DNA of 64,000 nucleotides from Serinicoccus marinus DSM 15273 (lineage in GTDB: Bacteria > Actinomycetota > Actinomycetes > Actinomycetales > Dermatophilaceae). The translations under genes and the position numbers were made by a program. This document shows positions 36,527 to 48,362 of this stretch, piece by piece; position 1 is the first letter of the stretch, and the number at the start of each line of letters is the position of its first letter. The notes under the pieces are model-generated. The model searched no databases. It saw only the letters and a list, made by a program, of their open reading frames with translations, and was not told the DNA's origin. The stretch is from the NCBI RefSeq assembly GCF_008386315.1, contig NZ_CP043808.1, positions 62,001 through 126,000 on the forward strand, written 5' to 3'.

Positions 36527-36976
36527 ACCACCCCAACGTAGTCAGGACGCGGAGCGTCGGGCAGGGTGTGCTCCCCCGATCCGGTGGGGGGTTAGCCCCC
36601 GTGCCAGCGCGGAGAGCGCATCCCGGACGTGGCTCGGCGATGGTGGCGTCAAGGGGAATGAGGGAGGGCGCGTCGGTCCCGTGACAGCCGACGCGCCCTC
36701 CTCGACGGACACATCACCCACCCCGACGGTCTGGGACCGGGGCGGACGCGCAGGGGGTGAAGCCCGCGTCCGGTCCACATCGTCGTGGACGTGTCCGGCC
36801 GATCGCAGCAGGTGCGTAACCAGAGCGACGCCCCACGTCGATCGACAACACCTACGCTAGGCCCGGATCGGCAAAGGGTGGGTATAAGCCGGGTAAGGAG
36901 TTGGTCAAATCTCGACGGGCTGCGTGCCGGGTTGCTGACCGCGACGTCTGTCACCGGCGTGCGTCAGACTGCCGGT
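36527..36976. other. 450-bp non-coding gap with two strong hairpins
   Basis: No convincing protein is encoded here. A perfect 13-bp stem (GAGGGCGCGTCGG and CCGACGCGCCCTC) with an 11-base loop occupies 36664-36700. A second hairpin with an 8-bp core (CGGACGCG and CGCGTCCG) lies at 36743-36772. The flanking genes diverge, so neither hairpin is needed as a terminator for them. They could bound a small RNA or be remnants. A less GC-rich stretch at 36868-36910 (GGGTATAAGCC, GGGTAAGG) may hold the ligase promoter. Confidence 0.5.
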
Positions 36977-38515
36977 ATGCAGCTGGCCCGGGTCACCGAG
37001 ACGTCCGCGGCGGTGGCGGCGACGCGGTCGCGCACCGCGAAGACCGCCCTGCTCGCCGAGGCCCTGGCCGAGGCGGCCCAGGGCGGTGACGAGCGCGAGG
37101 TCGAGGTCGTGGCGGACTACCTCGCCGGGACCCTCCCGCAGCGCACCGTCGGGGTGGGGTGGCGCAGCCTGCGCGACCGGCCCGCGCCGGCGGACGACGC
37201 GTCGCTGTCCGTGCTGGAGGTGGACGAGGCGCTGAGCGAGCTCAAGGCGCTGTCCGGAGCCGGGTCGACCGCGGCCCGGGCGACCGCGCTGGCCGACCTG
37301 CTCGGTCGGGCCACCGCACAGCAGCAGCAGTGGCTCGTCGGGCTGCTCACCGGGGAGCTGCGCCAGGGTGCCGGCGACGGGGTGCTGCTCCCGGCCGTCG
37401 CGCAGGCCGCCGACGTGCCGGAGCCGCTGGTGCGGCGGGCGGTCATGCTCGCCGGCTTCCCCGGGCCCGTGGCGCGGGCCGCGCTGGCCGGTGGCGCGGC
37501 TGCGCTGGAGCAGGTGCGGCTCGAGGTGGGTCGACCGCTGCGGCCCATGCTCGCCGGCTCCGAGCCGGACATCGCCTCCGCGGTGGACGGCTCGCGCGAG
37601 GTGGCGCTGGACCTCAAGCTCGACGGCATACGGCTGCAGGCCCATCTCGACCGGGAGGGCGAGCGCGGCGACGGCGGCGCGACCGTGCGGCTGTTCACCC
37701 GGAGCCTGGAGGAGATCACCGACCGGCTGCCCGAGGTCGTCGCGGCGATCGAGGCGCTCCCGGTCCGCTCGGCGGTGCTGGACGGCGAGGTGATCGCGCT
37801 CGACGCCGAGGGTCGACCTGAGCCGTTCCAGGTCACCGGGGCCCGCACCGCCTCCCGCACCGACCCGACCGAGCTCGCGCGCACGACCCCGGTGACGACC
37901 TACCTCTTCGACCTGCTGCACCTCGACGGCCGGGACCTCGTCGACGAGCCGGCGCGCGAGCGCTGGGCGGCGCTGGCCGATCTCGCCCCCGACCTCGTGG
38001 TGGAGCGGCTGAGCACCAGCGACGTCGGCGCGGCGCAGGACTTCTTCGACCGGGTGGTGGCGCAGGGGCACGAGGGCGTCGTGGTCAAGGACCCCCAGGC
38101 GCCCTACGCGGCGGGGCGCCGGGGCGCGGGCTGGGTCAAGGTCAAGCCGAGGCGCACCGCCGACCTGGTCGTCACCGGGGTCGAGTGGGGCAGCGGCCGG
38201 CGGGAGGGCTGGTTGTCCAACATCCACCTGGCGGCGCGCGGCGCCGACGGCGAGCTCGTCATGGTGGGCAAGACCTTCAAGGGCATGACTGACGAGCTGC
38301 TGGCCTGGCAGACCGAGCGGTTCCTGGGGCTGGAGACCTCGCGCGAGGGGCACGTGGTGCACGTCCGGCCCGAGCAGGTCGTCGAGATCGCCTACGACGC
38401 GGTGCAGACGTCGCGACGCTATCCCGGTGGCGTCGCGCTGCGCTTCGCCCGGGTGCTGCGCTACCGCGACGACAAGCAGGTCGAGGAGATCGACACGGTG
38501 GACTCGCTGCGCTGA
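36977..38515 (+). CDS. ligB: ATP-dependent DNA ligase (LigB type)
   Basis: Encodes 512 residues. It has an N-terminal helical DNA-binding domain (about 1-190), then the nucleotidyltransferase domain with motif I LDLKLDGIR, whose adenylated Lys is residue 214. Motif III (LPVRSAVLDGEVIAL), motif IV (GHEGVVVKDP) and motif V (GWVKVKP) follow, then an OB domain. The length matches mycobacterial LigB, a non-essential repair ligase separate from NAD-dependent LigA. ATG 36977 starts the conserved N-terminus; a CAGACT six bases upstream is a weak leaderless box. Monocistronic. Confidence 0.9.
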   Translation: MQLARVTETSAAVAATRSRTAKTALLAEALAEAAQGGDEREVEVVADYLAGTLPQRTVGVGWRSLRDRPAPADDASLSVLEVDEALSELKALSGAGSTAARATALADLLGRATAQQQQWLVGLLTGELRQGAGDGVLLPAVAQAADVPEPLVRRAVMLAGFPGPVARAALAGGAAALEQVRLEVGRPLRPMLAGSEPDIASAVDGSREVALDLKLDGIRLQAHLDREGERGDGGATVRLFTRSLEEITDRLPEVVAAIEALPVRSAVLDGEVIALDAEGRPEPFQVTGARTASRTDPTELARTTPVTTYLFDLLHLDGRDLVDEPARERWAALADLAPDLVVERLSTSDVGAAQDFFDRVVAQGHEGVVVKDPQAPYAAGRRGAGWVKVKPRRTADLVVTGVEWGSGRREGWLSNIHLAARGADGELVMVGKTFKGMTDELLAWQTERFLGLETSREGHVVHVRPEQVVEIAYDAVQTSRRYPGGVALRFARVLRYRDDKQVEEIDTVDSLR

Positions 38516-38576: not shown

Positions 38577-39164
38577 TCAGGAGACCCGCTGCCCCCGGTC
38601 GTCGAAGCAGGGAGACCGGACGTCCACCTGAACTCGTGCATCCATCCAGGGCGTGATCGTCACCTCGAACCCATCCGTGTTGCGGTGATGGGTGACCGGA
38701 TCACCCTCAGGGGCGGGGTCGTCGAGGCGTTCCCAGCCGTGGTCGTCCAGCCATGAGCGGACCAGTTCGGCTTGCTCGGCCTCCAGCCGGGGGTCCTCCT
38801 CCTCCGACACCCGCAGTCGAACCGTCTCGGCCCAGGCCGAGATCTCGGACATCGTGTCGAAGGTGCAGGCCCTGAGACCACCCGGCGCCATCTGCTCCTC
38901 GAGCTTCGGTTTGTCCGGCAGGTCGAACTGGTCCCACAGATCCTGCAGGATCTCCCGCACGCGGGGCTGCTGCTCCCCCGCCGCTGCCTCGGCGGCGCGG
39001 GACGTCACCACGGCGCCGCCGGGGGTGGTGATGCGGGTATCGTCCTCGGCCAGCAGCGAACAGCCACCGAGAGCGGTGAGCGCCAGTGCACCGACCAGCG
39101 CGGCACCCCGGCGTGACCGAGGTGATGGTGCCCTCGCGGAGCACCCCGCTCCGGCCGGCCTCAT
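38577..39164 (-). CDS. Lipoprotein B of the WXG100/DUF1023 cassette
   Basis: Encodes 195 residues with a long signal peptide and lipobox LGGC (Cys35). It shares its fold with two paralogues upstream (39161-39703, 40710-41255): a helical start REILQDLWDQFDLPDKP, an AETVRLRVSEEEDP segment, ELVRSWLDDHGWERLDDPAPEG, and a beta end with PCFDDRGQRV. A Cys pair (one near the middle, one in SPCF) is conserved in all three and could form a disulfide. ATG overlaps the preceding stop as ATGA. It is last in the operon. The family is not known to me; an immunity or chaperone lipoprotein is a guess from context. Confidence 0.65.
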   Translation of the reverse strand: MRPAGAGCSARAPSPRSRRGAALVGALALTALGGCSLLAEDDTRITTPGGAVVTSRAAEAAAGEQQPRVREILQDLWDQFDLPDKPKLEEQMAPGGLRACTFDTMSEISAWAETVRLRVSEEEDPRLEAEQAELVRSWLDDHGWERLDDPAPEGDPVTHHRNTDGFEVTITPWMDARVQVDVRSPCFDDRGQRVS

Positions 39165-40474
39165 CCCACCTGTCGGCCCTGGTCGTCGAAGCACGGCGAC
39201 TCCACATCCAGGATGACGCGGGCGTCGAGCTGGGGTGCCACGGTGACCGTGAAGCCGTCGTCGTTGCGGTGGTAGGTGACCGGGCTCGACTCGGGGGCGG
39301 GGTTGTCGATGCGTTCCCAGCCGTTGTCGTCCAGCCAGGCACGCACGAGCTCTGCCTGCTCGGCCTCGAGCTCGGGGTTCTCCTCCTCCGCGACGCGCAA
39401 CCGGGCAGTCTCGGCCCAGGAGCTGCTCTGAGCGGTCGTGTCGAAGGAGCAGGCCACAAGGTCTCCCTCCCCGGGCTTGTCCTCCAGCGGTGGCTTGTCC
39501 TCGAGGTCGAACTGGTCCCACAGGTCCCGCAGAATCTCGCGTACGCGGGGTTGCTGCTCCCGCGCCGCTGCCTCGTCGGCGCGTCGGCTCACGCTCGTTC
39601 CCTCCGTCGTCGTGGATCCCTCGGGGCTCGTCGCACCGTCGATGGTCTGACATCCGGCCAGTGCCACCGCGGCGAGCGCGAGTGCAGAGGTCAGGAGCCT
39701 CACGCGGGCTCGCCTCCCTGCCCGAAGCTGCCGTCGAGCGGACCGGTTGCCATGATCTCGGGCTGGGACTGCTCCCACGGGGACTCCAGATCGTCGATGG
39801 GCACGGGGGTGTGCCAGGGTAGTCCGGGTCGTCGTAGACGTTGTCGGGGCCGATCCAGTCGCCGTCCTCGCGGTACGGAATGACGTCGCCGCCGGTGATG
39901 ATGCCCACCGTGTTGGCCCAGGCATCGGTCCCGGGCTTGACCACGTGTCTGTGCGACTCGCGACCCTCCAGCCGCTGACCGGCATCCGCACCCTCGGTCC
40001 ACCGGCCCGTCTCGAGACGGATGAACTGGTCCGAGGAGTTCGGGTCGTCGCCGTGCCCCCAGTCCTCGGGCAGACCCACCCACCAGCGCACGTCCTCCGA
40101 GGCCTGGGCCACGGCGATGCTGTCGCCGGGCGCGGTCTGGGTGAAGCGCTGGACGTCCCGGTCGTGGCCGTCCCAGGTCTGCGGTGGGTACTCGTCGGGA
40201 GTCGACGGCTGCGCGCCCCACGGGTCGAGCGGCCAGGGCAGCGGCCGGTGCAGCCCCAGCCCGGAGCCGGAGGGGGCGACGAGCAGGGTGCGATCGACAT
40301 CGATGCCGTAGACGTCGGCGAAACCGACGATGCCACCGCCGGCGGAGTGGCCGACCGCTGTCACCGTCCGTTCCGACATGCCCAGGCCCTCGACGAAGCG
40401 CAGCAACGCTTGCCCGCCGTCCTCGGAGTAGCGGGTCTGGGTGGCCTCGGAGGCGACCGAGTTCGGCAGGTCGA
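38927..40474 (-). repeat. Tandem duplication unit 2 (hydrolase 3' part, lipoprotein A, lipoprotein B 5' part)
   Basis: This 1548-base unit has the same order of gene pieces as 40475-42054. Both units are bounded by GGCAGGTCGA (38917-38926, 40465-40474, 42045-42054). In one boundary gene the 10-mer encodes the DLP of lipoprotein B; in the other it encodes DLP of the hydrolase. The layout is what an unequal exchange at this 10-bp microhomology would produce. The two copies have since diverged unevenly. Confidence 0.75.
39161..39703 (-). CDS. Lipoprotein A2 of the WXG100/DUF1023 cassette
   Basis: Encodes 180 residues with lipobox LAGC (Cys18) and a Ser/Thr-rich linker. It is a paralogue of the protein at 40710-41255 and of lipoprotein B. 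Shared blocks include VREILRDLWDQFDL, SSWAETARLRVAEEENPEL, LVRAWLDDNGWERIDNPAPE and a C-terminal ESPCFDDQGRQVG. GTG 39703 overlaps the stop of the chimeric remnant as GTGA, just as its paralogue overlaps the intact hydrolase. This position repeats the ancestral hydrolase-lipoprotein junction. Confidence 0.68.
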   Translation of the reverse strand: MRLLTSALALAAVALAGCQTIDGATSPEGSTTTEGTSVSRRADEAAAREQQPRVREILRDLWDQFDLEDKPPLEDKPGEGDLVACSFDTTAQSSSWAETARLRVAEEENPELEAEQAELVRAWLDDNGWERIDNPAPESSPVTYHRNDDGFTVTVAPQLDARVILDVESPCFDDQGRQVG

Positions 40475-40673
40475 ACTGATCCCACAGATCCTGCAGGATC
40501 TCCCGCACGCGGGGCTGCTGCTCCCCCGCCGCTGCCTCGGCGGCGTGGGCCGTCACCACGGCGCCACCGGGGGTGGTGATGCGGGTATCGTCCTCGGCCA
40601 GCAGCGAACAGCCACCGAGAGCGGTGAGCGCCAGTGCACCGACCAGCGCGCACCCCGGTGTGACCGACAGGTG
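39700..40673 (-). pseudogene. Chimeric remnant: lipoprotein B 5' end joined to DUF1023 hydrolase 3' end
   Basis: The first 200 bases are nearly identical to the lipoprotein B gene (lipobox region ALGGCSLLAEDDTR, then REILQDLWDQFDLP). At GGCAGGTCGA the sequence switches to the C-terminal part of the hydrolase (NSVASEATQTRYSEDGG, AVGHSAGGGIVGFADVYG). A one-base deletion relative to lipoprotein B removes any in-frame start before the lipobox. A further indel near 39815 shifts the last 38 codons (PIDDLESPWEQSQPEIMA). With no start, no secretion signal in frame and half a hydrolase, it is most likely non-functional, though a truncated product from GTG 40559 cannot be excluded. Confidence 0.78.
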
Positions 40674-42054
40674 GATGGATTCCCGTGCATCGCGACCACT
40701 CAGGCAGCGTCATCCCACCTGACGACCCTGTTCGTCGAAGCAGGGCGACTGCACGTCCACCTGCACACGGGCATCTCCCCACGGAGTGAGAGTGACGGTG
40801 AACCCTTCGGCGTTCCGGTGGTAGCTCACCAGGTCTCCCTCAGGTGCGGGGTTGTCGAGTTCCTCCCACCCATTCTCCTCCAACCAGTCGCGGGCGAGCT
40901 GAGCCTGCCGCGCCTCGAGTGCCGGGTCCTTGACCTCAGATACCCGAAGTCGTGCTGTCTCAGCCCATGACGTGCTGTCGGAGGACGCGGTGAAGAGGCA
41001 AGCGCGGAGGCCACCTGGATCCTTGTGCTCGTCGAGGCCGGGCTTGTTCGGCAGCTCGAACTGGTCCCACAAAGCCTGCAGGATCTCCCGCACCGGGGGT
41101 TGCTGCGCGCGTGCGGCATCCTCAGCGGTTCCGCTCATGGTGGTTCCTTCTGTCGTGGGGACCGGCGAGGAGGTGGAGGGATCGTCGCCGCGATCGACCG
41201 CGCACCCCGTGACTATGGTTGCCAGGAGGGCCAATCCGGTGCCCGCCCGCCTCACGTCGAGCCGCCACCGCTGCCGAAGCTCCCGTCGACAGGGCCCGGG
41301 GCCATGATCTCGGGCTGGCTCTGCTCCCACGGAGACTCCAGATCGTCGATGGGCACTGGGTCGGTGCCAGGGTAGCCGGGGTCGTCGTAGAGGTTGTCCG
41401 GGTTGATCCAGTCTCCGTCCTCGCGGTAGGGGATGACCTCACCCCCAGTCATCACCCCGACGAGGTTGGTCCAGGAATCTGTGAAGGGGGTCACGACCCA
41501 AGTGTGGGCGTCCGCCCCTTCGAGCCGGTCACCGACCTCGATCCCCTCCGGTAGTCGGAGCGTGGGAGGGGGCTCGAGCCACCGTCCCGTCTCCAGACGG
41601 GTGAACTGGTCGGTGTCGATCGGGTCGTTGCCGTGCCCCCAGTCCTCCGGCAGGCCCACCCACCAGCGGACGTTCTCGGACTCTTGCGCAAGGCGGACGG
41701 TGTCGCCCGGGGCGGTCATGGTGAACCGCTGCACGTCGCGGGCCTCATCGTCCCAGGTGTGCGCCGGGTAAGACTCAGGGGTGCTCGGCTTCGCGCCCCG
41801 CGGGTCGAGCGGCCAGGGCAGAGGGCGGTGCAGCCCCAGCCCCGATCCCGAGGGCGCGATGAGGAGAGTGCGGTCGACGTCCATGCCGTAGACGTCGGCG
41901 AAGCCGACGATGCCACCCCCCGCCGAGTGGCCCACCGCTGTGATGGCCCGCTCGGGCATGCCTAGCCCTTCCACGAAGCGGAGCAGCGCCTGACCACCAT
42001 CCTCGGAGTAGCGCGTCTGCGTCGCGTCAGAGGCCACCGAGTTGGGCAGGTCGA
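40475..42054 (-). repeat. Tandem duplication unit 1 (hydrolase 3' part, lipoprotein A, lipoprotein B 5' part)
   Basis: This is the partner of unit 2 at 38927-40474 and has a length of 1580 bases. It carries the intact hydrolase C-terminus, lipoprotein A1 and the truncated copy of lipoprotein B. The difference in length is partly an insertion in the intact hydrolase (PPPTLRLPEGIEVGD) that the duplicate lacks. Confidence 0.75.
40710..41255 (-). CDS. Lipoprotein A1 of the WXG100/DUF1023 cassette
   Basis: Encodes 181 residues with lipobox IVTGC (Cys18), then a Ser/Pro/Thr linker and the same domain as its two paralogues. Blocks are VREILQALWDQFELPNKP, TSWAETARLRVSEVKDP, LARDWLEENGWEELDNPAPEG and SPCFDEQGRQVG. 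GTG 41255 overlaps the hydrolase stop by four bases, so lipoprotein and hydrolase are translationally coupled. It is clearly more diverged from A2 than the lipoprotein B fragments are from each other. An outside-facing anchored partner of a secreted hydrolase is plausible. Confidence 0.7.
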   Translation of the reverse strand: MRRAGTGLALLATIVTGCAVDRGDDPSTSSPVPTTEGTTMSGTAEDAARAQQPPVREILQALWDQFELPNKPGLDEHKDPGGLRACLFTASSDSTSWAETARLRVSEVKDPALEARQAQLARDWLEENGWEELDNPAPEGDLVSYHRNAEGFTVTLTPWGDARVQVDVQSPCFDEQGRQVG

Positions 42055-43183
42055 TGCCCATCCAGGTGATGGTGCTCGTCCCACGTCGTGCGACCGTCAC
42101 CATGTTGTCGCGGTACTTAGCGATGTTCGACATGTCCGTCGTCGTCCCCGGCACGAAGATCCCGACGTTCTCGCTGTCGAACTCGCCGTGCCACTCGGCA
42201 TATCGTCCGTCTCCCCGTGGATCGAAGAGGAGGATCGCGCGGTGGTCGCCGGACAGCACGAGCCCAGAGTCGTCCGTGACATCGGAGAAACGCAGCTCGG
42301 ACTTCGGCGCGAGGAGGTTGTTGTAGAACGCCAGCCGCTTCCGGGACCGCTCCACCTCTTGGTCCCGCAGCCGGAAGTCGTGGAGCAGCCTCTGCGCCTT
42401 GTCGTGCATGAGGCCGTCCACGATCTTCTCGGCGACCCAGTCCGGATACCACCCGGGCACGGTCTGCAGCACGTCCTCGCGGGTGGCGGCGTTGTCCGGC
42501 ATCGCCTGCAGGATCGCCAGCCGCTGCTGCTCGATGTCGATCGCGCTCTCGACGAGCAACCGGTTGGCGGCCGCTCGGTGCTCCACCGGTATGCCGTCGA
42601 GGCTGCCGATCAGGGTCGGGTAGAGCAGCCGCATGCGCTGCTGCTCCTGCGGGGTGAGCCCGGCCCAGTAGTCGCGGATGTCCGCGATCGCGCGGGGGTC
42701 GGTCACCTGACCGTTCTCGAGCTCACCGATGGCGTCCCAGAGCCCGGAGAGCACGGCGTCGTCGGCGTTGCGCGGTTCGTAGTCCGTGGCCAGCGCCGCC
42801 ATCACGTGCGGGTTGCGCTGCAGGAAGCCGGCCAGCCGCTCCTGGTCGAGCTCGTCCAGCAGGGCGCGCACGGCGTTCGGGTCCTCCGCCTGCGTGATCC
42901 GGGCGAGCAGGGCCTCGTCGGCGCGCGTGTTGGCCAGGCCGTGATCCCGGAAGACCTGCCACGCCCCCTCGGGTGCCTGCGACCGGGTGAAGCTGGCGGT
43001 GGAGGAGCCGGGCTGCAGACCGGCCAGCGAGGACCGGACCTGCGCGAGGGTGTCCCGACAGCCCCGGTCGGCGGTGCGCAGCATCTCCTTCGGGTGCTCG
43101 GTGCGGTCACGCAGGGCGTCCTCCCGACGTCGCACCTCGGCCCAGTCGATGACGCTCACGTCCTCGCCCACGTCGCCACGCAC
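41252..43183 (-). CDS. DUF1023 alpha/beta hydrolase of a WXG100 cassette
   Basis: Encodes up to 643 residues from GTG 43183. The first 330 residues are helical and charged. The C-terminal DUF1023 domain is an alpha/beta hydrolase with nucleophile elbow AVGHSAGGG (Ser near residue 414), preceded by NVGIFVPGTTTDMSN and followed by LIAPSGSGLGLH. No signal peptide is visible, so export would need WXG100 partners. There is no ribosome site before GTG 43183. The frame continues upstream in phase through a TAG at 43226-43228 into the preceding WXG100-like protein. The natural gene may therefore be one long WXG100::DUF1023 protein interrupted by an amber codon. Substrate is unknown; DUF1023 is annotated as a possible lipase/esterase. 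Confidence 0.78.
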   Translation of the reverse strand: MRGDVGEDVSVIDWAEVRRREDALRDRTEHPKEMLRTADRGCRDTLAQVRSSLAGLQPGSSTASFTRSQAPEGAWQVFRDHGLANTRADEALLARITQAEDPNAVRALLDELDQERLAGFLQRNPHVMAALATDYEPRNADDAVLSGLWDAIGELENGQVTDPRAIADIRDYWAGLTPQEQQRMRLLYPTLIGSLDGIPVEHRAAANRLLVESAIDIEQQRLAILQAMPDNAATREDVLQTVPGWYPDWVAEKIVDGLMHDKAQRLLHDFRLRDQEVERSRKRLAFYNNLLAPKSELRFSDVTDDSGLVLSGDHRAILLFDPRGDGRYAEWHGEFDSENVGIFVPGTTTDMSNIAKYRDNMVTVARRGTSTITWMGIDLPNSVASDATQTRYSEDGGQALLRFVEGLGMPERAITAVGHSAGGGIVGFADVYGMDVDRTLLIAPSGSGLGLHRPLPWPLDPRGAKPSTPESYPAHTWDDEARDVQRFTMTAPGDTVRLAQESENVRWWVGLPEDWGHGNDPIDTDQFTRLETGRWLEPPPTLRLPEGIEVGDRLEGADAHTWVVTPFTDSWTNLVGVMTGGEVIPYREDGDWINPDNLYDDPGYPGTDPVPIDDLESPWEQSQPEIMAPGPVDGSFGSGGGST

Positions 43184-43225
43184 CTCGGTGCGCGGCCGGT
43201 CGGCGTGGAGGGCGTCCCAGTCCCG

Positions 43226-43228
43226 CTA
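43226..43228 (-). other. In-frame amber codon between WXG100-like and DUF1023 segments
   Basis: The TAG lies in the context ACATCTAGCGGGACTGG (minus strand). Codons upstream encode TPTLRDI and codons downstream in the same phase encode RDWDALHADRPRTEV, which reads as continued helical protein. The two segments share one reading phase with no other stop for more than 2 kb. Confidence 0.6.
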
Positions 43229-43528
43229 GATGTCGCGCAGCGTCGGCGTGTGCTGGTCCAGCGCGCCGGCCAGGCCGTCCAGGGCGTCACCGGCGGCACG
43301 CAGGTCCTCCTGCATGACCCGCAGCCCGTCCTGCGCCGGGTCGGCCGCCTCGTCGGCGCGGTCGGTGATCTGGCCCTCCCACCCGAGCGCCGCAGCCGCC
43401 GCGCCGAGCGTGCGGCGCAGGCCGGTGCGCTCGTCGTCGACGACGTCGGCCGCATCGCGCAGGCCTCGTGCGGCGGTCCGGACGCGACCGTCGTCGCTGA
43501 CCATCCAGTCGGGGATGTCGAGGCTCAT
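43226..43528 (-). CDS. WXG100-like helical protein
   Basis: Encodes 100 residues, predicted as two long helices around LGWEGQITDRADEA, whose Trp-Glu-Gly is the WXG turn of ESAT-6-like proteins. ATG 43528 overlaps the preceding stop as ATGA. It may be a free partner protein or, if the terminal TAG is an artefact or is read through, the N-terminal secretion domain of the DUF1023 hydrolase. Such N-terminal fusions are common for type VII substrates. Confidence 0.7.
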   Translation of the reverse strand: MSLDIPDWMVSDDGRVRTAARGLRDAADVVDDERTGLRRTLGAAAAALGWEGQITDRADEAADPAQDGLRVMQEDLRAAGDALDGLAGALDQHTPTLRDI

Positions 43529-43788
43529 CGCTCACCCGTGGCGTCGCCGGTGTTGTCGGCCAAGGTCGTCATGCCCTCGGCCAGCGTCGCGAGCTCCCGC
43601 CCGGCGTCCGACAACCGCAGGCGCCCGGTGCTCTGCAGGTCGGCGAGCACCCCGGCCGTGGACGACCCGCGCAGCTGACCCGTGAGGTCGGCGACGGCGA
43701 CGGAGCCGGCGGCGCCGTCCAGCGCGTCGCCGCCCTCGCTCAAGTCCTTCGCGGCCGCCTTCGTGGCGGCGATGTCGATCTGTGGCAC
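43525..43788 (-). CDS. Small WXG100-superfamily-like protein, first gene of the cassette
   Basis: Encodes 87 residues that are helical and small-residue-rich (AATKAAAKDLSEGGDALDGAA, LSDAGRELATLAEGMTTLAD), with a central loop. It lacks a classical WXG but has the length and helix-turn-helix pattern of ESX partner proteins. GTG 43788 follows a strong GGAGGGAGG site, and a TAGGCT -10 box lies about 25 bases further upstream on the minus strand (43811-43816). It probably heterodimerises with the next protein. Confidence 0.6.
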   Translation of the reverse strand: MPQIDIAATKAAAKDLSEGGDALDGAAGSVAVADLTGQLRGSSTAGVLADLQSTGRLRLSDAGRELATLAEGMTTLADNTGDATGER

Positions 43789-43878
43789 GGTCCTCCCTCC
43801 CGCGGCGGCCAGCCTAGCGGGGGGTGCCGACCTTTGGCAGGATCGGGGCACGCATACCGCTCGCAGGGAGGGTCACCG

Positions 43879-45401
43879 ATGACCAGCGCCAACCTCGCCC
43901 ACAACCTCGCCGCCACGGCGCAGGCCCACCCGACGCGCGGGCGGTGATCCTCGACGACACGGTCCTCACGTATGCCGACGTCGAGGAGTCCGTCGGGCGG
44001 CTGGCGGGATGGTTGCGGGCGCAGGGCGTGGGCGAGGGTGACCGGGTGGCGCTGATGCTGCCCAACGTCCCCGCCTTCCCGGTCCTCTACTACGCGACGC
44101 TCCGGCTCGGCGGGGTCGTGGTGCCGATGAACCCGCTCTTCAAGAAGCGGGAGATCCAGTTCTACCTCGAGGACTCCGGTGCAGCGCTGCTCGCGGCCAT
44201 GCCGGGCGAGGACGCCACCGCGGCGGCCGAGGCGACGGGCACCCGGTTGCTCACCGTCGGCCCGGAGGGGCTGAGCCCCTACGTGGACGGCGAGGAGGCG
44301 GTGGATCCGGTGGAGGAGATCGTCCCCCGCGACGGCGGCGACACCGCCGTGATCCTCTACACCTCCGGCACCACGGGGCGTCCCAAGGGCGCCGAGCTCA
44401 CGTGCGACAACCTCCAGACTAACCAGCTCGCGACCACCGAGACGCTCATCCACCTCGACGGTGACGACGTCGTCATGGGCTGCCTGCCGCTCTTCCACGT
44501 CTTCGGCATGACCTGCGGCATGAACACCGCCTTCCACGCCGGCGCGGCGCTGACGATGATCCCGCGCTTCGACCCGGCCAAGGCGCTGGAGGTCATCGCC
44601 CGGGACAAGGTCACCGTCTTCGAGGGCGTCCCGACGATGTACGGCGCGATGCTCGCCGCCGCGGCCGCCGCCGACACGGCCCCGGACCTCACGACGCTGC
44701 GCACCGCGATCTCCGGCGGCGCCAGCCTGCCGCTGGAGGTGATGAAGAAGTTCGAGGAGACCTTCGACGCCACCATCCTCGAGGGGTACGGCCTGTCCGA
44801 GACCTCACCGGTCGCCTCCTTCAACCACCCGGATCGCGAGCGCAAGGCGGGCTCGATCGGTATACCGATCCGTGGGGTGGAGATGAAGCTCGCTGGGCCG
44901 GACGGAACGGACGTCGGGGTGGCCGATTCGGGCGACCCCGACGCGGTGGGGGAGATCTGCATCCGTGGCGAAAACATCATGAAGGGCTACTGGAACCGGC
45001 CGGACGCCACGGCCGAGGCCATCGACGCCGACGGCTGGTTCCACTCCGGCGACCTCGCCCGCGTCGACGAGGACGGCTTCTTCTTCATCGTCGACCGCAA
45101 GAAGGACATGATCATCCGCGGCGGGCTCAACATCTACCCGCGCGAGATCGAGGAGCTGCTCTACGAGCACCCGGCGGTCGCCGAGGCAGCGGTCATCGGC
45201 GTCCCGCACGAGGAGCTCGGTGAGGAGGTCGCCGCCTACGTCGTGCTGGCGCCGGACGCCGAGGCGACCGAGGCCGAGCTGATCGAGCACGTCAAGAGCC
45301 AGGTGGCGCCCTACAAGTACCCCCGCACGGTCACGACGATCGAGGAGCTGCCCAAGGGCGCGACCGGCAAGATCCTCAAGCGAGCGCTGCGCGACGCCTG
45401 A
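43879..45401 (+). CDS. Long-chain fatty-acid-CoA ligase family (frameshifted near N-terminus)
   Basis: An AMP-forming acyl-CoA synthetase of about 508 residues once repaired. ATG 43879 begins SANLAHNLAATAQAHP. A missing C near 43930 then shifts the frame and gives a TGA within 23 codons, and the rest continues in the next frame (AVILDDTVLTYADV). Adenylation motifs are clear: ILYTSGTTGRPKGAE, LEGYGLSETSP, GWFHSGDLARVDEDGFF, and the catalytic Lys in PKGATGKILKRALR. It activates fatty acids or related carboxylates to CoA esters. The deletion is in a C run, so an error is likely. Confidence 0.85.
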
Positions 45402-45436: not shown

Positions 45437-45742
45437 TCAGTCAGCCGACTGAGCCGCTTCCTGTGCGTCCGCCTCTTCCTCCAGCTCCCGTGCCCGGGTG
45501 CGGCACCGCTCTGCGTAGCCGAGGACGTCGTCCCGCAGCGTGCGGACCTCGCGCCGCACGTCGCGGACCCCGTCGTAGAAGTCCGTCGCGGCGCTGCCCC
45601 ACCACACACCGTCGGGTGACTCCGGGTAGCGCTGCAGCAGCGTGTCGAGGTCGTCGTCCAGCAACCCACCCTTGGTGGTGATCGTGCCGGCCACCTCACG
45701 CATCAGCCCTGCGCGCCTGCGCTTCTCCTCCGGTGTGGTCAC
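45437..45742 (-). CDS. WXG100-like protein, last gene of the second cassette
   Basis: Encodes 101 residues with a helix, a loop containing WWGSAATDFYDG (Trp-x-Gly turn), and a second long charged helix (VRREVRTLRDDVLGYAERCR). The acidic C-terminal tail is coiled-coil-like. GTG 45742 overlaps the preceding stop as GTGA. The layout is that of an ESAT-6-like protein. It probably pairs with the large effector-like protein encoded first in the operon. Confidence 0.62.
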   Translation of the reverse strand: MTTPEEKRRRAGLMREVAGTITTKGGLLDDDLDTLLQRYPESPDGVWWGSAATDFYDGVRDVRREVRTLRDDVLGYAERCRTRARELEEEADAQEAAQSAD

Positions 45743-46536
45743 AGCAGGCTCATCCCGACGAGGATGGAGAAGAAGGCCTCGGACGGGAGGGCGCCGAGGG
45801 TCACCAAGGAGCTGCCGTGGTCCTGGAGCCGGAGATGACCGTGCCGGCCGGCGTGGATGCCGCCGAGCCGGTGCTCGGTGTCCGTGGTGATGGTCCAGGT
45901 GAACCATGGCTGGGCCCACACCTCACGCAGGAACTCGCCGGCGCCGTCTGGTGCCGGGGCACGGGGGTCGTCCATCCGGGCGGTGACCAGGTCGGTCGCG
46001 ATCGCGTCGGGGGGCAGGTCCATCGGCCAGGAGGGTCCGACCTGCAGCCAGGCCGCCAGGTCCGTCGGCAGCTGCATCGTGGGCAACCAGAGCAGCGTCC
46101 CGGACGTCGCCGAGGCCAGCCGGTCGCGCCCCAGCGTCGTCCGCCCGTCCCACGACGCCGGGGAATCCGTGGCCCAGACCACAACCGCTCCCTGGCGCCG
46201 TGCGGCCTCGTAGGTGCCGGGCACGCCGGACGCGGCGCTCTCCACCCGGATACGCCTGTCAGCGGTGCTCAGCACCGCATGGGTGGTCATGCCGTCGTCG
46301 GTCAGCCGCCCTGCTCCGTCCACCAGCCCGACGGACTCCAGCTCGGTCGCGGCTGCCTCGTCCTTGACGCGCGCCGCCCCGACCCGCCGGCGGCCGACCT
46401 GGGCCAGGGCGACGAAGGCGTCGCGGGACAGCCGCACGCCGTCCGGCTCCCAGTGCTGCGAGCCGTGCAGCCGGGACAGGTCCTCCAGGGCCTCTCCCCT
46501 GGCACGCCAGAAGTCGTCGAGTCGCGGTTCAGGCAT
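45739..46536 (-). CDS. Uncharacterised 265-residue protein, possibly EspG-like chaperone
   Basis: A soluble alpha/beta protein with no signal peptide. After an N-terminal helical part comes a winged-helix-like segment (ATELESVGLVDGAGRLTDDG). Beta strands follow (HAVLSTADRRIRVESAA, AVVVWATDS), and then repeated strands to the end. The pattern recalls the EspG chaperones that bind type VII substrates, but I see no diagnostic motif, so this is a weak suggestion. ATG 46536 overlaps the previous gene by 8 bases. Confidence 0.4.
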   Translation of the reverse strand: MPEPRLDDFWRARGEALEDLSRLHGSQHWEPDGVRLSRDAFVALAQVGRRRVGAARVKDEAAATELESVGLVDGAGRLTDDGMTTHAVLSTADRRIRVESAASGVPGTYEAARRQGAVVVWATDSPASWDGRTTLGRDRLASATSGTLLWLPTMQLPTDLAAWLQVGPSWPMDLPPDAIATDLVTARMDDPRAPAPDGAGEFLREVWAQPWFTWTITTDTEHRLGGIHAGRHGHLRLQDHGSSLVTLGALPSEAFFSILVGMSLL

Positions 46537-47002
46537 TCTTGGCCTCGGGGGACGGAGGGCGCTGCACGCGCAGGCTGTCGACGCAGGCGGAGATCAGCGG
46601 CATGACCCGGAGGTAGCGGTCGGAGTCGACCGTGGCGGTGAGGGACAGCGGCCGGTCTCCCTCCAGTCGCAGCCACGTCGTCGTGCAGACCAGGGCATCA
46701 CCGCTGGGCCAGGTCGACAGCAACCGGCGACCGGCGTCGTCCTGCCACAGGTCCCAGGCGATCATCCGGTGCCCGGGCCCCATGGCGAGCAGGGTGGCGG
46801 CGGTCTGCGTGGCGACCGCCCGGACGCTCTCCTGCGTCGGTGCGCCCAGGCCGATCACGAGGTTGGGCCGCAGACCCAGTTCCTCGGCCCAGCTCTGCGG
46901 GGCGATGGCCAGGAGCACGGATCCGTCGTCGTCCGGCTCCTGCTGGATCTGTGCCCAGCCGGGCGGCGGCTCGACGTGGATGTCTAGGTCGGGCGGCGTC
47001 AT
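46529..47002 (-). CDS. Uncharacterised 157-residue protein, Mog1/LpqN-like fold suggested
   Basis: No signal peptide. It starts with DIHVEPPPGWAQIQ, a typical opening of the alpha/beta sandwich proteins of the PsbP/Mog1/LpqN type. The sequence continues NLVIGLGAPTQESVRAVATQ, WQDDAGRRLLSTW and a closing helix VMPLISACVDSLRV. Homologues with this fold often accompany secretion systems. ATG 47002 overlaps the previous stop as ATGA. Function unknown. Confidence 0.42.
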   Translation of the reverse strand: MTPPDLDIHVEPPPGWAQIQQEPDDDGSVLLAIAPQSWAEELGLRPNLVIGLGAPTQESVRAVATQTAATLLAMGPGHRMIAWDLWQDDAGRRLLSTWPSGDALVCTTTWLRLEGDRPLSLTATVDSDRYLRVMPLISACVDSLRVQRPPSPEAKNA

Positions 47003-47328
47003 ACCGGGTCCTTCCATCGAGGGGCCTCCTGCAGCCACCGGGGTGTCAGCGGTCGGGGGAGCCAGAGCACCGCCAGGACGCCCAGGGCGAAGGACACCAG
47101 CGCCAGGACGAGGAGCACGGCACCGAGCGCGAGCGGGGCGAGGGCCGCGAGCTGGGTCAAGAGCAGGGCGGCGCCGAGGTAGAGCGGGGCGAGGTGCAGG
47201 GTCTGGCTGGGCCATGACCGCAGCATGACGGCGCGGATCCGACCCGACCAGGCGTGGAGACCGATGGCCAGCAGCCCGAGCGCCAGCAGCAGCAGCGGCC
47301 AGGAGAAGGTGAGGTCCTCGATGCTCAT
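46999..47328 (-). CDS. Small membrane protein of the second cassette
   Basis: Encodes 109 residues with three hydrophobic helices at about 9-27, 43-65 and 68-88 (LTFSWPLLLLALGLLAIGL, LGAALLLTQLAALAPLALG, VLLVLALVSFALGVLAVLW). The third ends in a Pro/Arg/Trp-rich C-terminal tail. ATG 47328 overlaps the large protein's stop. A membrane protein encoded next to a protein with a membrane-active tail could act as immunity or export partner. That is inference only. Confidence 0.5.
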   Translation of the reverse strand: MSIEDLTFSWPLLLLALGLLAIGLHAWSGRIRAVMLRSWPSQTLHLAPLYLGAALLLTQLAALAPLALGAVLLVLALVSFALGVLAVLWLPRPLTPRWLQEAPRWKDPV

Positions 47329-48362
47329 CCGAACAGCGACCCCCACACCTTCTTGGCACCGTCGGCCACGGCGCTGCTGGCCTCCTTGAGAGCCGTCCCG
47401 GCGGCCTTGCCGGCCTTTGAGCCGACGAAGGCACCGATCGCGCCACCGATGAGGGCGCCGCCCACGGTGCCGACGACGGGGATGGGGACGAAGCTGCCGG
47501 CGATCGCACCGTAGTGTGCGCCGACGAGCCCTCCCGCGACCGCGCCGCCGCCCTCCGTCACGACGTTGTAGCCCGCGGACGCCACTCGTTGCCCGGTGCT
47601 GTACTCCGGGTGGTAGCGCTGGTCATGCTCCCACTGGCTGGCGGCGGAGTCCCAGACGGTGAGACCCACCCCGGCGGCCCCCAGCGCCCGGCCTCCGGTC
47701 CGGGCCCATGTCGGGGGTCGCCCCAGGTCGGGGCTGGTGGTGACGTTGGGGCCGGGGCGGTAGGTCGCTTCGTCGGTCAGGGTGGAGATGCGGGAGAGGC
47801 GCGGGTCGGCGCTGCCTCCCTGCGGCACGAGCACTCCGCTCGAACGGCGGACGAAGGCCTGGCCGTCGTGCACGTCGTCAGCCGTTGAGAGCAGGGAGTT
47901 CAGCTCCTGCAGGGCCGGTGCGGCGCTCACGCTGTCCGCGCGAGGGACGTAGAGGTGAAAGTTGCGATACCGCTCCAGCAGGCCCTGACCGACGCCGAGG
48001 GGGATCGCGCCGAACTCGTCGCTGCGCGCGATGCGCTCTAGGTTCTCCCGGATGGTCTCGTCCTCACGGGGCAGGAGGTTGCCGAAGTCGGGAAGCCAGT
48101 ACCCGGCCTCACGCAGCTCCTGGATCGGTCTCTCATGGTCGACGTAGCGGACGGCGTGGTCCTGCGCGGCACCGGCGAGGAGCGAGAGCGTCTCCGCGGC
48201 GACCGAGGCGCGGCGCCGCGCGGAGGGGGCGCCGCTCACCCATTGGTCGACCTTCTCGATCTGGGTGGTGATGTCACCACCGATCTCGGACACCGTGGTG
48301 CCGACACCGAGGGTGGCAGCGCTCATGGCCAAGACCCCGTCGGGGTCGATCCTCACGGTCAC
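47325..48362 (-). CDS. WXG-like protein with glycine-zipper C-terminus, candidate effector
   Basis: Encodes 345 residues. Residues 1-90 form an ESX-like helical pair (GTTVSEIGGDITTQIEKVDQ, SVAAETLSLLAGAAQDHAVR). A middle region of about 150 residues follows. From about 250 to 335 there is a glycine-zipper hydrophobic segment (GGGAVAGGLVGAHYGAIAG, VVGTVGGALIGGAIGAFVG) and an amphipathic end KKVWGSLFG. Glycine zippers insert into membranes and occur in pore-forming toxins and bacteriocins. GTG 48362 has a GGAGGG site, and a TAGGGT -10 box lies about 40 bases upstream. It heads a five-gene operon. A secreted pore-forming effector is a hypothesis. Confidence 0.55.
   Translation of the reverse strand: MTVRIDPDGVLAMSAATLGVGTTVSEIGGDITTQIEKVDQWVSGAPSARRRASVAAETLSLLAGAAQDHAVRYVDHERPIQELREAGYWLPDFGNLLPREDETIRENLERIARSDEFGAIPLGVGQGLLERYRNFHLYVPRADSVSAAPALQELNSLLSTADDVHDGQAFVRRSSGVLVPQGGSADPRLSRISTLTDEATYRPGPNVTTSPDLGRPPTWARTGGRALGAAGVGLTVWDSAASQWEHDQRYHPEYSTGQRVASAGYNVVTEGGGAVAGGLVGAHYGAIAGSFVPIPVVGTVGGALIGGAIGAFVGSKAGKAAGTALKEASSAVADGAKKVWGSLFG

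Follow-up and report, generated by a model that had tools for sequence, protein, structure and literature searches.

What might a bacterium gain from a cassette in which a hydrolase gene stands between a small upstream protein and a series of lipoprotein genes? The question is raised by a minus-strand locus in Serinicoccus marinus DSM 15273, contained in a 64-kb window (the whole stretch of DNA analysed, G000:C1:62001-126000 of the 3.42-Mb single-contig genome G000; coordinates below are window positions unless a contig is named). The order of its genes is W1 (87 aa; 43525..43788), W2 (100 aa; 43226..43528), the hydrolase (41252..43159, start codon uncertain), LipA1 (40710..41255), an orphan hydrolase fragment (~39700..40474), LipA2 (39161..39703) and LipB (38577..39164), and neighbouring genes overlap by 4 nt at 43525/43528, 41252/41255 and 39161/39164, as a first-pass annotation of this DNA had described for a cassette at this position. 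The same annotation distinguished two kinds of lipoprotein. The lipoboxes are indeed present (VTGC in LipA1), and the full inventory comprises three intact genes and the 5' fragment of a LipB-type gene (~40461..40667), which keeps its lipobox and is fused in frame to the orphan fragment, a fusion that had gone unreported.

We consider it probable that the locus encodes a type VII-exported, polymorphic antibacterial toxin of the alpha/beta-hydrolase (lipase-like) type together with lipoprotein immunity. Type VII export with immunity lipoproteins had been proposed by the first-pass annotation, and it is favoured by co-occurrence with an EssC-type ATPase, by abutting lipoprotein genes in other genera, by the paired exchange of a hydrolase C-terminus and its lipoprotein, and by a genome (G080) that has lipoproteins and no hydrolase match. 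In the proposed mechanism, W1 would pair with the N-terminal WXG domain of the hydrolase to form an export signal for recognition by the EssC-type ATPase, whose gene lies at another place on the chromosome. Once exported, the hydrolase would use its C-terminal alpha/beta-hydrolase domain to cut acyl esters of neighbouring related bacteria, most likely membrane phospholipids, although we hold phospholipid as the substrate to be less likely than the toxin-immunity reading as a whole. From the outer surface of the membrane, where they are anchored, the lipoproteins would bind and block the hydrolase domain of the cell itself and of its kin. Because this recognition would be type-specific, a hydrolase C-terminus and its adjoining lipoprotein would move together, and the array would retain lipoproteins against toxin types that are no longer made. 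The reading draws on gene order, the gene fusion in relatives, the W-x-G motif, conserved serine, aspartate and histidine residues, the module swap with its fossil, co-occurrence, and lipoproteins without hydrolase in one genome; from these features of the sequences we infer secretion, substrate, toxicity, binding and immunity.

Lipoproteins beside the hydrolase and without it

Among 31 Serinicoccus-group genomes (the genus sample, numbered G; P and L numbers denote proteins of relatives and fetched loci), 10 have a match to the hydrolase and 11 have the lipoprotein family, namely all 10 hydrolase carriers and G080. At the same site in G080 (L139:7600-8930), a W1-like start (recognized by eye) is joined in frame to the final 16 residues of the hydrolase, and two lipoprotein genes with open frames come next; no hydrolase match was found in this genome. 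Fifteen of the 18 places at which the lipoprotein family occurs in the genus are beside a hydrolase (the window contributes four of these, counting the fused fragment), and the others are in G080 (two) and G161 (one), so that the family does not lie mostly away from the hydrolase, a distribution that would have spoken against the first-pass proposal. The family member in G161 (L140:6673-7092) stands alone, at about 12 kb from essC and a long way from the G161 hydrolase, and it is another lipoprotein that follows this hydrolase (L100). A TAG codon breaks the hydrolase frame in the window, and frame changes break it in G119 and G155; beside each, a lipoprotein frame is open, with the one in G119 stopping a few residues short. 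Some of these breaks may be errors of assembly. Across the 12 pairs tested, the lipoproteins have ratios of nonsynonymous to synonymous substitution rates (dN/dS) of 0.19-0.41.

The type of the lipoprotein follows the type of the hydrolase. The main copy of the window and that of G119 are 85% identical in the C-terminal part and 81% identical in the lipoprotein, whereas each of them is 69-77% and 55-60% identical, respectively, to those of five other genomes. Across these seven genus genomes, identity in the C-terminal part correlates with identity in the neighbouring lipoprotein (r 0.91; 16 of 5040 permutations as high), and the correlation persists when the orphan is added as an eighth unit (r 0.90; 28 of 40320 permutations). 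For LipB, a comparison of four genomes gave no clear grouping by hydrolase type; its equivalent is also the last gene in G127, G167 and G168 (L108, L109 and L111).

The association of the two genes extends beyond the genus. In 24 of 47 loci of hydrolase relatives, the next gene downstream carries a lipobox and abuts or overlaps the hydrolase gene (3 in Serinicoccus and 21 outside it, including Aeromicrobium, Saccharopolyspora oryzae, Serinibacter, Microbacterium, Cryobacterium, Mycolicibacterium and Mycobacteroides). As a control, an abutting lipoprotein gene follows 3 of 330 other long gene-like open reading frames of the same loci, where the gene filter of the control finds 23 rather than 24 hydrolase loci with such a gene (Fisher test, P = 7e-22, a value that overstates independence, many of the loci being mutually related).

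Adjacency, overlapping genes and covariation of the C-terminus with the lipoprotein would equally be expected if the lipoprotein specifically helped the exported hydrolase to fold, as a chaperone or foldase, or to stay at the cell surface, as a docking factor, with the enzyme serving nutrition or envelope remodelling and not attack. Lipase foldases of Gram-negative bacteria, which help lipases fold, are an example of such a partner. This explanation fits less well with the two lipoproteins that G080, a single case, keeps without a hydrolase match, and with the open lipoprotein frames beside the interrupted hydrolases of the window, G119 and G155. The several non-identical lipoproteins per locus and the displaced C-terminus with a lipoprotein of its own also suit immunity better. 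We therefore regard a chaperone or docking role, which the first-pass annotation had listed beside immunity, as unlikely, and immunity as the favoured of its options.

The hydrolase and its proposed route of export

The window hydrolase is closest to other Serinicoccus proteins (88% identity over the whole query to P0001 of S. marinus, and 97% over 84% of the query to P0004 of Serinicoccus sp. CNJ-927). In P0001-P0010, W2 and the hydrolase form one protein of 678-759 aa (P0004, with 678 aa, ends in a diverging tail), and in the window the same frame is open across W2 and the hydrolase save for one TAG codon (43226-43228). On the 3' side of this codon, the frame is open to the end of the gene (634 aa), with a dN/dS of 0.26 relative to G127. 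Because the frame after the stop is still open and evolving as a protein, the TAG would appear to be either a recent stop or a sequencing error. W2 is thus the N-terminal WXG100-like domain of the hydrolase, a separate open reading frame here through the in-frame TAG, and the remainder of the protein consists of a helical middle part and the C-terminal alpha/beta-hydrolase domain.

The identification of the enzyme as a DUF1023 alpha/beta hydrolase with an intact GHSAGGG motif, made in the first-pass annotation, holds: the protein matches PF06259 (DUF1023, Abhydrolase_8) with 30.0 bits against a curated cut-off of 20.5, and the nucleophile elbow is intact. Residues S536, D610, H633 and H667 (P0001 numbering) are invariant in 26 of 26 relatives, and either histidine could be catalytic. 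We rejected the accompanying description of two small, separate WXG100 proteins, given the fusion in P0001-P0010 and the single TAG in an otherwise open frame; in addition, W2 scores 20.6 bits for WXG100 (PF06013), below the cut-off of 27.3, and W1 matches no Pfam or NCBIfam family.

W-x-G is present in the sequences of 23 of the 26 relatives. In a structure model of P0001, it is located at the turn between two long helices (residues 14-47 and 53-109), with a predicted local distance difference test score of 54-65 around residues 41-70; the hydrolase fold, too, is as predicted by a model. When compared with solved structures, the hydrolase profile matched mainly coiled coils, with Staphylococcus aureus EsxA at E 0.26 over residues 13-99. 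W1, the putative secretion partner of the WXG domain, was matched before the hydrolase in all nine fetched hydrolase-bearing loci of the genus (L108-L116) at 39-74% identity, the match in L114 being limited to 49 aa. Further proteins, in L117 (G161) and L118 (G169), share only the N-terminal part of the hydrolase at 28-31% identity and may be further cargo proteins whose export domains are related.

The first-pass annotation had noted the lack of an EccC-type ATPase in the window and placed the export machinery elsewhere. An EssC-type ATPase with FtsK/SpoIIIE domains is indeed encoded in the same genome, about 56 kb away from the hydrolase (G000:C1:161041-165885), and the gene directly after it is WXG100-like (25.4 bits against the cut-off of 27.3). 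All 31 genomes of the genus match the EssC query somewhere, since FtsK and remoter EssC genes also respond; orthologues were taken as matches of at least 74% identity. By this threshold, an EssC orthologue is present in 12 of 31 genomes, including 10 of 10 hydrolase carriers (Fisher test, P = 1.5e-6, relatedness ignored). The two genes are on one contig, 12-83 kb apart, in nine of the 10 carriers and are far apart in G161. Apparent stop codons in the EssC orthologues were discarded as breaks, as they fall within the first 42 residues of an over-long open reading frame, before the likely start. A second, remoter EssC-like gene (39%) is located at 2.217 Mb. Just upstream of the essC region is a Tad/Flp pilus-like gene cluster (G000:C1:150000-157000; L013), named by eye from sequence.

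Could the hydrolase instead be a housekeeping cytoplasmic enzyme, with the WXG-like domain an incidental helical hairpin and the lipoproteins unrelated passengers? PF06259 genes without a lipoprotein neighbour are common and the WXG100 score is below its cut-off, as this explanation would have it. It does not predict the W-x-G at the helix turn in most relatives, the presence of one EssC orthologue in every carrier, a rate of abutting lipoprotein genes far over that of the control, or the restriction of the hydrolase to 10 of 31 genomes, and we judge it very unlikely.

A displaced hydrolase C-terminus

The orphan fragment between LipA1 and LipA2 is a hydrolase C-terminus with a GHSAGGG of its own and a frameshift near its end (both of its ends are approximate). 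Over 219 aa it shares 97.3% identity with the C-terminal end of S. marinus P0001, compared with 80.0% over 250 aa for the current C-terminus of the window hydrolase. When the main frame is set against P0001 in blocks of 40 aa, the first 11 blocks are 92-100% identical and the next seven 61-90%; relative to P0003, identity breaks off earlier. At the DNA level, the orphan and LipA2 form one 1.3-kb piece that is 84-86% identical to the hydrolase-lipoprotein stretch of the other-type loci L108-L112 and 72% identical to the main copy of the window and to G119. The neighbouring lipoproteins are distributed accordingly: LipA2, which follows the orphan, is 77-80% identical to the lipoprotein that comes first in L108-L112, where the hydrolase is of the same type, and LipA1, which adjoins the current hydrolase, is 81% identical to the lipoprotein beside the same-type C-terminus in G119.

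Because the orphan, and not the current C-terminus, matches P0001, a C-terminus and its lipoprotein appear to have been swapped as a pair. Most simply, the present C-terminus and LipA1 would have replaced an S. marinus-like one, pushing the old C-terminus with LipA2 downstream as a fossil. The exchanged parts are variants of one fold and not different toxin folds.

The LipB-type 5' fragment is 96.6% identical to LipB at the DNA level over 208 columns, and the string TCGACCTGCC is shared at the point of its fusion to the orphan. There is no ATG, GTG or TTG in frame ahead of the lipobox of the fusion. A similar chimera, P0051 of Serinicoccus sp. CUA-874, has an open frame of 330 aa, in which a lipoprotein start with a lipobox is joined to a hydrolase C-terminus 98.2% identical to the orphan over 219 aa; it could be either a surface-anchored hydrolase piece or an inert relic. 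By eye, a mosaic make-up is also suggested for some lipoprotein genes, such as P0035 and P0043. A tandem duplication within one strain, with no exchange of toxins between strains, would account for the short shared sequence at the fusion point and for the near-identity of the LipB 5' end and the fragment (97%), but we set it aside as the least likely of the alternatives, since the main and orphan C-termini (68% identical in the part compared) diverge far more than the LipB copies and since a simple recent duplication would leave both C-termini about equally alike.

Counter-evidence, neighbouring genes and known systems

Several observations weigh against a type VII toxin with lipoprotein immunity. 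The hydrolase of the window strain is split by the stop, which may render its toxin gene inactive and does not bear out a clearly working toxin in this strain, and retention of lipoproteins without the hydrolase was seen in a single case, G080. The best NCBIfam match of the ATPase is EssC at 586.6 bits, below the cut-off of 778.4, and a search for YukD found none. Covariation was assessed in only seven genus genomes of two types, mainly two (the window strain and G119) versus five; within this set, the N-terminus of the hydrolase also correlates with the lipoprotein (r 0.75; 54 of 5040 permutations) and with the C-terminal part (r 0.82; 111 of 5040), a modest contrast to the r of 0.91 between C-terminal part and lipoprotein.

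The distribution of the lipoprotein partner belongs to the same side of the argument. In 23 of the 47 loci, the lipobox rule accepts no abutting gene (L042 is a narrow miss); four of these have an overlapping gene lacking a signal peptide (L030, L032, L037 and L055) and 18 have neither, among them L036, in which a small protein without a signal peptide is encoded 26 nt from the hydrolase gene. In these five loci (from Micromonospora, Solihabitans and Actinocatenispora), a small protein without a signal peptide thus follows the DUF1023 gene, and although four of the five align weakly (22-30%) with Aeromicrobium lipoproteins, signal-less proteins in the place of the lipoprotein do not suit immunity outside the cell. 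In 26 further loci of the taxonomic family, a lipoprotein gene follows (gap of at most 1 nt) in 6 only, a gatC-like gene (named from sequence) takes its place in 6, another gene or nothing is found in 11, and 3 are unreadable (L077, L084 and L091). Lipoproteins accompany the hydrolase in 24/47 and 6/26 loci only, so the partner is characteristic of just a part of the PF06259 family.

Affinities of the lipoproteins themselves were sought in families, structures and profiles. LipA1 and LipA2 match no Pfam family, LipB has one match below the cut-off (to an unrelated family), nine downstream proteins from other genera have no Pfam match above the cut-off, and a Foldseek search with the lipoprotein model returned no match at E <= 0.001. 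In profile comparisons, all based on thin alignments, the Serinicoccus lipoproteins scored 95.5% over 78 columns with an Aeromicrobium/Micromonospora group, the Aeromicrobium group scored 71.6% with a pair of mycobacterial lipoproteins, and no usable link was found between Serinicoccus and the mycobacterial proteins (2.7%). The profile of the two mycobacterial lipoproteins had three matches among solved structures at E 0.5-0.6, two of them at the signal peptide. The LppA lipoprotein of Mycobacterium tuberculosis (PDB 2v7s) is among the closest comparisons. We tentatively suggest, as somewhat less probable than its opposite, that DUF1023 hydrolases followed by a small lipoprotein are antibacterial lipase toxins of type VII systems, a class widespread in actinobacteria and extending to Aeromicrobium, Mycolicibacterium and others, in which lipoproteins of obscure role (perhaps LppA-like) would confer immunity and type VII secretion would serve bacterial warfare as in Bacillota.

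Two genes flank the locus, one resembling acyl-CoA ligases (43824-45401) and the other ATP-dependent DNA ligases (36785-38515), names that we assigned from sequence motifs. These flanks are common to L108-L113, six of the nine fetched hydrolase-bearing loci of the genus, and to the hydrolase-less site of G080. Outside the hydrolase unit, a second minus-strand module (45437..48362) consists of a WXG100-like open reading frame (45437-45856), a glycine-zipper protein (47325-48362) and, between them, three genes with no family, one of which encodes a small hydrophobic protein; the WXG100 and glycine-zipper matches are both below the Pfam/NCBIfam cut-offs. The module is near the hydrolase locus in L113 and in L020 and L110 (the same species and probably one genome), is directly upstream of W1 in L021 of O. 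cerasi, and was not seen within the stretch examined of L108, L109, L111 and L112. It is perhaps another type VII cargo module.

Searches of the literature, mostly without subscription journals and bioRxiv, found no paper describing such a locus, and a search for Serinicoccus with 'type VII secretion' gave none. No biological role of DUF1023/Abhydrolase_8 was found in the passages retrieved, which gave a mutation table, a remark on lids and a fold assignment of 2005. If the proposal is true, a function is gained for some of the DUF1023 hydrolases and for a family of lipoproteins that has no name, and the toxin-immunity signature in Actinomycetota (swap with fossil, immunity retained after toxin loss and covariation) would make the killing of competitors by type VII secretion directly testable in Serinicoccus, which is not known as a pathogenic genus.

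In the passages available of the literature found, interbacterial type VII toxins are from Bacillota. Among them, the type VII-linked lipase-like toxin TslA of S. aureus and its immunity lipoprotein TilA, as described in parts of PMC10730906, resemble our locus in their small helical partner proteins, the variable number of lipoprotein paralogues and the strain-variable toxin domain, and the mechanism that we propose follows the scheme described there, with other parts. The layout differs: TslA has the lipase first and the helical targeting domain last, whereas here the WXG domain is N-terminal and the hydrolase C-terminal; and the immunity gene precedes the toxin and the partners follow it, whereas here the partner precedes and the lipoproteins follow. 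TilA is a lipoprotein of the DUF576 family, whereas LipA1 and LipA2 fall in no Pfam family, DUF576 included; the toxin domain here is PF06259, and the phylum is a different one. An N-terminal export domain with a variable C-terminus is shared with the streptococcal LXG toxins, going by portions of PMC5555719 and PMC9484751, in which TipC has a predicted lipoprotein signal sequence (PMC5555719, PMC9484751) and type VII immunity genes occur in recombining tandem arrays (PMC9484751). The LXG/TipC systems, from Bacillota, have other toxin and immunity proteins and an LXG instead of a WXG domain (PMC5555719, PMC9484751). In the polymorphic-toxin survey PMC3482391, the toxin domains Tox-ABhydrolase-1 to 3 are likewise alpha/beta-hydrolases that may be directed at lipids, and the systems that contain them have immunity proteins; the first 300,000 of its 357,715 characters do not mention DUF1023, and Imm65 is given there as the only immunity protein of the collection that appears to be a lipoprotein. 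Judged by its genes, the Serinicoccus locus would add to these systems a polymorphic type VII toxin-immunity locus from Actinomycetota, with a DUF1023 toxin domain and unnamed lipoproteins, built on a toxin-immunity plan that is already known.

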